Part shown: positions 1,205 through 6,827 of the stretch, piece after piece | How the letters are laid out: each line of letters starts with the position of its first letter | Position numbering within the stretch: the first letter of the stretch is position 1 | NCBI GenBank assembly: GCA_025361765.1 | Contig: JANYJS010000082.1 | Span: 1-64,000, forward strand | Origin: Bacillota bacterium | GTDB taxonomy: Bacteria > Bacillota > Clostridia > Peptostreptococcales > Anaerovoracaceae | Length of the DNA stretch: 64,000 nt | Direction of reading: 5' to 3' | Made by a program: the position numbers and the translations under genes | The notes under the pieces: model-generated | Databases searched by the model: none | The model's input: only the letters and a program-made list of their open reading frames with translations | What the model was told of the DNA's origin: nothing

Positions 1205-2176
1205 ATGACAAATGTATCTGAAAATCAAAAAATCAGGTTGTTTTTTTCACTGTTGATTTGCATGCTTCTTATTCTCGCACCACAGAGCTCTTTTGCAGCT
1301 TCTCCTTCTGATATCGAATCCCATTGGGCAAAAAATCAGATTCAGGGCTGGTTAGACAAAGGAATAGTAAGCGGCTATCCAGATGGCACTTTTAAGCCGG
1401 ATGCCACTATTTCAAGGGCTGAATTCATGTCTATCGTCAATAACGCTTTTGGATATACAGCCGAAATGCCAACTCAATTTTCTGATGTTAAAACTGATGC
1501 CTGGTATTTTGATGTTCTAACGAAAGCAGCAGCGGCTAAATATATTTCTGGTTATGCTGATGGCACCATGAAGCCAGATCGTCCAATTAGCCGAGAAGAA
1601 GCAGCCGTCATTATCGCAAATATTAGCAAACTTCAAGCTAATAAAGATGGCATTAGCAAATTATCTGATATAGCTAGCATAAAATGGAGTGACGGTTCAG
1701 TTGGAGCCGTTGCCACTGCTTGTCTTATGACCGGCTATCCGGATGGGAGCTTCAAGCCTCAGGGAATAATCCTTCGCGGAGAGGCAGTGGCTGCCCTAGA
1801 AAAGGCAAGGTCTTTTTCGACAATGAATGCTTCCAACCAGACCCTTACTGGCTATATCATGGATGAACATTGTTTTGTAAAAAAACCCGTCCCGGGATCA
1901 GATACTAAAGTCTGCCTACAAATGCCTACCTGTGCCGCTACTGGCTACGGGATTGCCGTTGCTCAAAATGATGGTTCCTACAGATTCTATTATTTCGATG
2001 GCGCATTTGCACCTAATGCAACCAATTCGCAGGCAAAAGCCGTACAATTAATAAATGATACTGTTAAAAAAGATCATATTGCGATCTCCGTCACCGGCAA
2101 AATGAATGGGGATTTTAAAACTGCAGCAGATGGTTTCTCCTATCTGATTCTATCTGCAACGGGAATGACCGAATAG
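1205..2176 (+). CDS. S-layer homology (SLH) surface protein with C-terminal Cys domain
   Basis: 323 residues from the ATG preceded by AAGGAGG; the frame is open further upstream but without a ribosome site. Residues 1-31 form a signal peptide ending SSFA. Three SLH repeats follow (about 33-82, 90-140, 152-202), each with the G[YF].DG[ST][FM]KP signature; such trios bind pyruvylated secondary cell-wall polymer. The last 110 residues form a separate domain with three cysteines spaced C-x13-C-x5-C (C223, C237, C243), a CAATGYGIA motif, FYYFDG and DHI. The same domain is found in the next gene, 24 bases downstream, so the two are probably co-transcribed. I do not recognise this domain. A surface-attached redox or ligand-binding role is a guess from the cysteines. 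Confidence 0.85.
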   Translation: MTNVSENQKIRLFFSLLICMLLILAPQSSFAASPSDIESHWAKNQIQGWLDKGIVSGYPDGTFKPDATISRAEFMSIVNNAFGYTAEMPTQFSDVKTDAWYFDVLTKAAAAKYISGYADGTMKPDRPISREEAAVIIANISKLQANKDGISKLSDIASIKWSDGSVGAVATACLMTGYPDGSFKPQGIILRGEAVAALEKARSFSTMNASNQTLTGYIMDEHCFVKKPVPGSDTKVCLQMPTCAATGYGIAVAQNDGSYRFYYFDGAFAPNATNSQAKAVQLINDTVKKDHIAISVTGKMNGDFKTAADGFSYLILSATGMTE

Positions 2177-2200
2177 TAACATCTATAGGAGGCCCTGATT

Positions 2201-2776
2201 ATGAAGAACTTTTTTTCTATTAAATCAATTGCTTATTTAGGTATTCTGTTACTTATTCTTGTTTTAATGTCTCTTTATAGTCTGGGTTTACTCGGCGCAA
2301 AAACAAGCGACGAATCAATAGGCGACTCCCTTGGTTCTGCTCTTCCAACAACAGAAAGCATAACCATTTCTTCAACAGTTGAAAGCGCAACAGTTCCAGT
2401 TGATAAAGAGGTTCTGCAGAATTTCAGTGGCTATTTCATAGATCAGGATTGTTTCATCGCCTATGAAAATCCCTGGGAGGACAACAAGGACTGTCTTCTG
2501 ATGGAATCCTGCGCTGCTAGTGGTTATGGAATTGCTATAAAGAAAAATGATGGCAACTATCAATTTTATTACTTTGATGGGAACTTTGCTCCAAATAAGT
2601 CCGCTGGACAGATAGAAGCTGCAAAGCTTATTAACGATACGACAAAGACTGACCATATTTATATAGAAGTAACAGGCACGCTGAGTAAATCGTCAAAAAT
2701 CGGAACAGATGCCAAGAGCTATGAAGTAATCAATGTTTCAACGATGGCGCAAGCGTCAGCGCCTCCTGCAGAATAG
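2201..2776 (+). CDS. Membrane-anchored protein with the same Cys domain as its neighbour
   Basis: 191 residues; the start has AGGAGG upstream. Residues 8-32 form one hydrophobic segment that serves as membrane anchor or uncleaved signal; a Ser/Thr-rich linker runs to about residue 72. The remaining part matches the C-terminal domain of the upstream SLH protein closely, with C84, C98 and C104 in the identical C-x13-C-x5-C spacing, CAASGYGIA, FYYFDG, FAPN and a DHI motif. It has no SLH repeats, so one copy is tied to the membrane and the other to the cell wall. The pair looks like a tandem duplication that gained different anchors. Function unknown. Confidence 0.75.
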   Translation: MKNFFSIKSIAYLGILLLILVLMSLYSLGLLGAKTSDESIGDSLGSALPTTESITISSTVESATVPVDKEVLQNFSGYFIDQDCFIAYENPWEDNKDCLLMESCAASGYGIAIKKNDGNYQFYYFDGNFAPNKSAGQIEAAKLINDTTKTDHIYIEVTGTLSKSSKIGTDAKSYEVINVSTMAQASAPPAE

Positions 2777-5804: not shown

Positions 5805-6827
5805 ATGAAGAAAAGATTAGCAAGATCCTTAGCCCTATTACTTATGCTGTCGTTAGTTTTAGTTTCAGCAATACCATCATTTGCAGCTGATACAGTTACG
5901 ACCGCTTCACCTGCTTGGGTGGAAGGAACGACCACTACTCCAGTAGCCCCTGTGACTACCACAAAAGCACCAGTACCAACTGTTAAAGGTCAGGTATACA
6001 CAGCGGTATCCGGCGATGCATTCTGGAAAATAGCTGCAAAGTATAAGCTTACGGTTAAGCAGCTTGCCGCTCTTAATCCACAGATCAAAAACGTTAGTAT
6101 GATCTATGTTGGACAAAAAATTACCGTTAACGGCACAGCAGCTCCTGCAACTACACCAACTACAGCTACTGCAAAAACTTATCAGGGCTTAGGCTACAAA
6201 GTTAACTTCAGAAACGGCCCTGGTGCTGATTCTGCAAGCGTTCCAGTTTATAGCTTCAATGTAGCTATGGCTGCTGCAACTTTCGATGCTAACGGCAAAA
6301 TCCTAAATGTATTCATGGATGGATATGAAGTCGCTACACCAAACTATGATGGCGCATCTATGCCTCATTTTTCAGGCTGGCCTGGCGTTCAGGGATACAA
6401 TATCTCTAGCCATGCTGTTGAAGGCGTATCAGAAGCAGTAGTAACCGGCGTTTCCGTAAACACTCTTGATTCAGCTACAGCTGAAGTCAATGGATGGCTT
6501 ACAAAACGTCAGCGTGGCGATAGCTACGGCATGAACCCAACTAATGACTGGCACAAACAGATGGATTTCTATCAAAACTTCTTCAAAGGCAAGACCGTTG
6601 CTGAAGTCAAAGCTTGGTTCGCCAAGTTCGGAACCGCTGCTTATGGCCCAATCAAAGCAACTACAACAAATGCAGCAGACCTTGCAAAGTTTAATGTATT
6701 AACAACAGCAGAAAAAGCTCAGCTTGCTGACGTCGTTTCTGGAGCTACTATGAGAATCAATGATGCTCATGGCTTCTTCCTTGACGCTCTTCAGACTGCT
6801 TATGACAACCGCGTAGAAGTTAAATAA
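5805..6827 (+). CDS. Secreted LysM protein with FMN-binding-like domain
   Basis: 340 residues, start preceded by ATAGGAGGAG. Residues 1-27 are a signal peptide (IPSFA), followed by a Thr/Pro-rich linker. Residues about 62-108 are one LysM domain (YTAVSGDAFWKIAAKY, LAALNP, IYVGQKI), which binds peptidoglycan. The C-terminal 200 residues look like an FMN-binding domain: near the end is D309-V-V-S-G-A-T315, matching the D-x-x-[ST]-G-A-[ST] signature in which ApbE covalently attaches FMN to the Thr, as in NqrC and RnfG. This would be a cell-wall-bound flavoprotein, possibly for extracellular electron transfer; that part is inference. No ApbE gene is in the window. Confidence 0.75.
   Translation: MKKRLARSLALLLMLSLVLVSAIPSFAADTVTTASPAWVEGTTTTPVAPVTTTKAPVPTVKGQVYTAVSGDAFWKIAAKYKLTVKQLAALNPQIKNVSMIYVGQKITVNGTAAPATTPTTATAKTYQGLGYKVNFRNGPGADSASVPVYSFNVAMAAATFDANGKILNVFMDGYEVATPNYDGASMPHFSGWPGVQGYNISSHAVEGVSEAVVTGVSVNTLDSATAEVNGWLTKRQRGDSYGMNPTNDWHKQMDFYQNFFKGKTVAEVKAWFAKFGTAAYGPIKATTTNAADLAKFNVLTTAEKAQLADVVSGATMRINDAHGFFLDALQTAYDNRVEVK

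Follow-up and report, generated by a model that had tools for sequence, protein, structure and literature searches.

We analysed a 64,000-nucleotide stretch of a Bacillota bacterium genome (the window), in which two adjacent forward-strand genes encode predicted surface proteins sharing a domain with conserved sulfur-bearing residues. Gene 1 (1205..2176) encodes a protein of 323 amino acids comprising an N-terminal hydrophobic signal-like segment, three SLH repeats (approximately 1307..1819; three stretches of PF00395, E=5.4e-39) as the wall anchor, and a C-terminal domain copy (1841..2173). The signal-like segment and the SLH repeats together mark protein 1 as an SLH-anchored surface protein. 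Gene 2 (2201..2776) starts 24 bases downstream and encodes 191 amino acids, with a predicted N-terminal transmembrane (TM) anchor followed by the second domain copy (2420..2773). Each gene is preceded by an AGGAGG ribosome-binding site (1191-1196 and 2187..2192, respectively), the second of which lies inside the intergenic gap. Protein 2 has a single hydrophobic segment (residues 13-31, Kyte-Doolittle mean 2.6) behind an N-terminus with two lysines, and on these grounds it is predicted to be membrane-anchored with the domain facing outside. An earlier sequence-only reading of this DNA had proposed that one copy is wall-bound via SLH and the other membrane-bound, and the PF00395 match and the predicted TM segment agree with this. 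The window begins at base 1 of its contig (C76 of genome G000, 2.23 Mb in 144 contigs), and the upstream neighbourhood is thus out of view.

The two domain copies are similar far beyond chance: BLASTP aligned proteins 1 and 2 without gaps over 112 residues, of which 54 are identical (48%, E=6e-38). Both keep the C-x13-C-x5-C spacing without deviation (C223/C237/C243 and C84/C98/C104, respectively), and the segments CAA[ST]GYGIA, FYYFDG, and DHI[AY]I[ES]VTG occur in both, all as the sequence-only reading had described. A constant fourth sulfur, the methionine of a CxxMxxC motif, had been overlooked there. The candidate ligand regions comprise C223 and C237-xx-M240-xx-C243 in copy 1 (1871..1933), and C84 and C98-xx-M101-xx-C104 in copy 2 (2450..2512).

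That the domain was unrecognised, as had also been claimed, was confirmed, and no known family with a settled function came to light. Pfam and NCBIfam gave no convincing match; the hits were weak and scattered, and the best of them, NCBIfam hisC (E 0.0048, in 1 of 12 members), was judged to be due to chance. Nor was a relative found among PDB sequences, where the best profile match was a LysM protein (E 0.11), likewise judged a chance hit. Searches of plasmid and phage collections by tblastn (repeated for plasmids with the copy from locus L043) and of viral contigs by peptide patterns found no relative of the domain. Among the papers listed in a few searches of one open-access library, no title or abstract opening describes such a domain.

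The taxonomic distribution of the domain is patchy. No third copy was found in the window's genome. With a single protein as the query, the domain was present in only one of 61 close-relative genomes, namely the window's own, and in none of 36 other genomes of the window's family. In the class, 12 of 391 genomes gave matches at E<=0.01, of which five were counted as real (the window's own, G276, G346, G370, and G387); the remaining seven (G232, G110, G103, G096, G132, G377, and G328; E 2.3e-6 to 0.007) were left out of the counts, and the match in G232 (L024) covers the end of a protein judged SLH-like by eye. The domain was detected in 3 of 398 genomes of the phylum and, in three orders, in 1/73, 12/225, and 6/58 genomes; the genome sets overlap. 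Peptide patterns located further copies on genome contigs, L018 (a Bacillota metagenome-assembled genome) and L019 (Clostridiales bacterium 43-6). After omission of L086, which represents the same place as L018, the family alignment contained 72 copies from 25 places, i.e., the window and 24 relatives' loci.

The arrangement of a wall copy and a membrane copy was not confined to the window. Judged by SLH/CWB2 similarity and hydropathy, wall-type copies occur in 14 places, anchored by SLH in the window, L020, and L101, and by CWB2 in L018, L022, L023, L042, and L074 to L080 (the L074 wall gene is split in two pieces). A membrane-type copy, with either an N-terminal TM segment or a DsbD_2 fusion, lies in the same stretch in 12 of the 14. 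The exceptions are L018 and L101, and the genome of L018 (G1069) carries a TM copy on another contig (L085). The anchors vary among the relatives, with CWB2 taking the place of SLH and DsbD_2-cupredoxin that of a single TM segment. Since a membrane-type copy accompanies the wall-type copy in 12 of 14 places, the envelope pair is, as far as predicted anchors tell, a recurring arrangement. The sequence-only reading had suggested that the pair acts across the envelope, and the pairing it described is supported by this recurrence.

Structure prediction, a check which that reading had proposed, yielded a confident model. The AlphaFold2 model (pLDDT 93, pTM 0.86; nine input sequences, from the window, L018, and L019 only) runs from one strand through three short helices, two further strands, and another helix to a pair of long strands, an order that we describe as a predicted OB-like fold. 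C84, C98, M101, and C104 of copy 2 correspond to model residues 16, 30, 33, and 36, all within the helical part that separates strand 1 from strand 2. The best Foldseek matches were single-stranded DNA-binding proteins (best E 2.6e-4, TM-score 0.44/0.48). Signal or TM segments and wall modules are present in most copies, and for this reason a nucleic-acid role was rejected. The top VIA-align match was the C-terminal OB domain of NlpE (CutF), with a Z score of 7.2 and an rmsd of 2.9 over 83 residues at only 8% identity; the second and third matches were tied with it, and a Z score below 8 may mean no more than a common arrangement. The likeness to these OB folds is one of shared arrangement and not of kinship.

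A close functional parallel is CusF, which binds Cu(I) through Met, His, and Trp ligands and, going by the predicted model, has the OB fold in common with our domain, a likeness of fold only. When the window proteins, ten proteins from relatives, and 12 aligned copies of the domain were scanned with Pfam, no CusF match appeared, and CusF was absent among the matches listed by Foldseek and VIA-align, which speaks neither for nor against a likeness. The domain differs from CusF in its Cys/Met triad and its wall or membrane anchoring, and no conserved histidine was seen in it; unlike with CusF, no RND pump was noticed near it, although no search was aimed at RND pumps. According to the passages of PMC7558416 cited here, CusF, a Cu(I) chaperone with an OB fold in the periplasm of E. 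coli, receives copper from CopA outside the cytoplasm; it sets the precedent for an acceptor of this fold that acts after CopA. In our best reading, the domain would work in a way analogous to CusF without sequence kinship to it.

The sulfur-bearing residues were compared across all 72 copies, the triad being defined as three positions spaced by three residues, with the upstream Cys or Asp as a fourth position. CxxMxxC with an upstream Cys is found in 27 copies, including both window copies; MxxMxxM with an upstream Asp in 23; and CxxCxxC in four. The other 18 consist of one CxxKxxC, one CxxSxxC, one truncated copy, and 15 without a triad, all of the latter from proteins bearing more than one copy. 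In no copy are Cys and Met mixed at the first and third triad positions. With the motif columns kept, a tree built from the 54 typed copies requires a single change to MxxMxxM (support 100/99) and a single one to CxxCxxC (100/98), the bootstrap being unsettled; when the motif columns were removed, the same two changes were recovered with weaker support (92/66 and 99/94, respectively). In one CWB2 protein (L078:6524-9325), MxxMxxM, CxxMxxC, and MxxMxxM copies alternate, which suggests that sites of mixed affinity may be present in a single chain.

This exchange of thiols for thioethers would keep a soft-metal site and lose a disulfide. The sequence-only reading had offered disulfide, metal, or heme binding as explanations of the conserved cysteines; of these, the alignment favours metal. 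A thiol-disulfide role, in which the domain is a partner of DsbD_2 and electrons crossing the membrane through DsbD_2 keep the domain's cysteines reduced or reach other surface proteins, might be expected from the relationship of DsbD_2 to the electron carrier DsbD (the proteins match PF13386 and, more weakly, PF02683) and from the fusion of the domain to DsbD_2 in six loci. A redoxin/TlpA-like gene and, by eye, a CcdA-like gene also lie some kb from the single domain copy of L103. However, the copies have no conserved redox Cys pair: in the 23 MxxMxxM copies, both Cys positions are taken by Met, which forms no disulfide, and the upstream position by Asp, yet 19 of the 23 come from loci that encode a DsbD_2 protein of this very kind, to which one of them is fused. 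In addition, protein 2 has only three Cys in total. We therefore regard this role as unlikely. Gram-positive bacteria are known to relay heme between wall and membrane, but no axial histidine is conserved (at any column, His occurs in at most 15 of the 54 typed copies) and some copies have no Cys in the motif, which makes heme binding extremely improbable.

The genes surrounding the domain in the relatives point to copper. With score cuts of 300 bits for CopA, 100 for DsbD_2, and 50 for cupredoxin, at least one copper gene (CupA-type cupredoxin, DsbD_2, or CopA) was found in the stretch read at 17 of the 24 relatives' loci, compared to 0 of 20 control stretches of 19.5 kb taken at random from eight of the same genomes (Fisher test, 7e-7, to be read with the reservation that the loci are not independent, many coming from one family). 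Counted singly, CupA-type cupredoxin was present in 15 loci, DsbD_2 in 14, and CopA with at least 300 bits in nine. In the six loci mentioned above (L020, L042, L074, L076, L079, with a weak score, and L082), DsbD_2-cupredoxin and the domain form a single protein, as do TM-cupredoxin and the domain in L019. The cupredoxin of the L020 fusion matched the CupA structures 2mry/4f2e with E=1.2e-6, a neighbouring cupredoxin in L021 with E=5.6e-5, and a TM-cupredoxin of the window's own genome with E=1.5e-7; in the latter two, the C and CxMxM positions, the ligands of CupA, are aligned. The L020 ATPase passed the cut-off of TIGR01511 (582 vs 397 bits). In the order of G370, a cupredoxin was found in 11 of 12 domain-bearing genomes vs 104 of 213 others (p=0.005).

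CupA-like cupredoxins are neighbours and fusion partners of the domain and not the domain itself. The CupA of Streptococcus pneumoniae is described in the cited passages as a membrane-anchored chaperone that hands Cu(I) to CopA (PMC5646241, PMC7558416), and in those of PMC7558416 as known from only a few other streptococcal species. In the order of G370, CupA-type cupredoxins occurred in 115 of 225 genomes. The DUF326/Csp copper-storage proteins offer a parallel in that they sequester copper through Cys, as is proposed here for the domain; we know of no wall anchoring among them. A DUF326 gene of the copper-storage type lies approximately 2.5 kb from the domain copy of L103 (L103:5756-6139).

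Taken together, three fixed sulfurs and relatives located beside or fused to copper-handling proteins led us to consider that the pair most likely catches and passes copper outside the cell. Specifically, we propose, with a probability of roughly 0.55, that the domain is an extracellular OB-fold domain binding Cu(I), or possibly Ag(I), which holds or relays exported copper between membrane and wall. The sulfurs of CxxMxxC and the upstream Cys would together make up a soft-metal site within the helical part of the model. CopA-type ATPases would pump copper out, and DsbD_2-cupredoxin proteins of the CupA type would handle Cu(I) at the outer face of the membrane; the membrane-bound copy would then accept Cu(I) through its triad, and the wall-bound copy would receive it from there or store it, so that Cu(I) would be kept off the cell. 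The window pair may act in the manner that the relatives' context suggests. We take the domain to be a new family, whose functional kind, extracellular copper handling, is known and whose anatomy is new.

Several points weigh against this proposal. Seven of the 24 relatives' loci (L018, L043, L083, L084, L085, L102, and L103) showed no copper gene at the cuts used, although L085 and L102 are short contigs, L083 has a cupredoxin approximately 11 kb from its domain copy, beyond the stretch read, and L103 has a small HMA-like (CopZ-like) open reading frame of 70 amino acids below the cuts. The start of a CopA-like gene, also below the cut, is seen at the edge of the L082 stretch. Cupredoxin often occurs without the domain, as in the 104 domain-less genomes above. 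The window's contig has no DsbD_2 or CopA match, one side of the locus being unseen. The fold matches are unremarkable (best Z 7.2), and the triad is missing in 15 of 72 copies. Finally, a single origin would suffice for MxxMxxM, and likewise for CxxCxxC, so that the exchanges would amount to about two events and not 27.

The window's genome does possess two copper modules, both on other contigs. One (C41) consists of an HMA-DsbD_2-cupredoxin, a TM-cupredoxin, CopA, and a two-component system. The other comprises a DsbD_2-cupredoxin and a CopA-like gene on C104, the rest of this gene seemingly lying on C48; the copA-like gene appears to be broken at the ends of these two contigs (L040 and L041). 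The same anatomy would fit either direction of flow, and the pair might instead be an uptake or delivery device, in which the wall and membrane copies capture scarce copper outside the cell and pass it on, either into the cell or to a cuproenzyme at the surface. One DsbD_2-cupredoxin of the window's genome (L039) carries an N-terminal HMA-like domain and could operate in the inward direction. On the other hand, the sole linked ATPase scanned, that of L020, falls into the CopA group of copper-translocating enzymes, whose known role is export, and no cuproenzyme was recognised in the stretches read, where no systematic search for one was made. We hold uptake or delivery to be unlikely. It is also conceivable that the domain is merely a structural or adhesive OB module stabilised by its cysteines: folds of the OB type are found in many roles, the repeats that are combined with Big_3 and CWB2 resemble ordinary surface-protein architecture, and the triad-less copies would be accommodated. 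The coordinated Cys/Met exchange and the copper-gene linkage argue against such a role, which appears quite unlikely to us.

Nitrogenase-like and sulfur-related genes were also noticed in the neighbourhoods. NifDK-like genes were found in 12 of 24 loci (L020-L023, L042, L078-L083, and L101) vs 2 of 20 controls, and O-acetylhomoserine sulfhydrylase in 11 of 24 vs 0 of 20; sulfonate-type ABC genes often accompany the NifDK-like genes near the domain. Cu(I)-loaded surface domains, with the metal on sulfur ligands at wall and membrane, might serve as a capture device for thioethers and thiols, feeding nitrogenase-like reductases, sulfonate-type ABC transporters, and O-acetylhomoserine sulfhydrylases. 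The NifDK-like proteins could in that case be methylthio-alkane reductases. If this were true, the system would be a copper-based surface for scavenging volatile organic sulfur compounds and not a detoxification sponge. We consider it very unlikely. The window's genome gave no match to PF00148 and hence has no nitrogenase-like gene, so that the pair there would have to serve something else; as a general explanation, the nitrogenase link was rejected for this genome.

Some further observations concern the surroundings. A small secreted-looking protein without a Pfam match and a NapH-like 4Fe-4S membrane protein (Fer4_5) are encoded near the domain genes of L018 (L018:4632-6151), and similar pairs were seen by eye in L081, L082, and L101. 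In the window, a LysM protein (5805-6827), for which Pfam gives LysM alone, contains D-x-x-SGATM in its C-terminal part, resembling the flavinylation motif of FMN-binding proteins. Promoter-like and terminator-like counts in the window were near shuffle levels and gave no evidence on transcription, and an Rfam scan of the window returned no match at the gathering score.

In our view, less is clear about where Cu(I) goes once CopA has exported it from a Gram-positive-type cell than about its fate in Gram-negative bacteria. The latter employ CusF and other periplasmic proteins for exported Cu(I), according to the cited passages of PMC7558416. The domain described here is a concrete and testable candidate for the extracellular handling of Cu(I) in Gram-positive-type cells, and its natural swap of Cys for Met ligands within one predicted fold may be of use to metal-binding chemistry.
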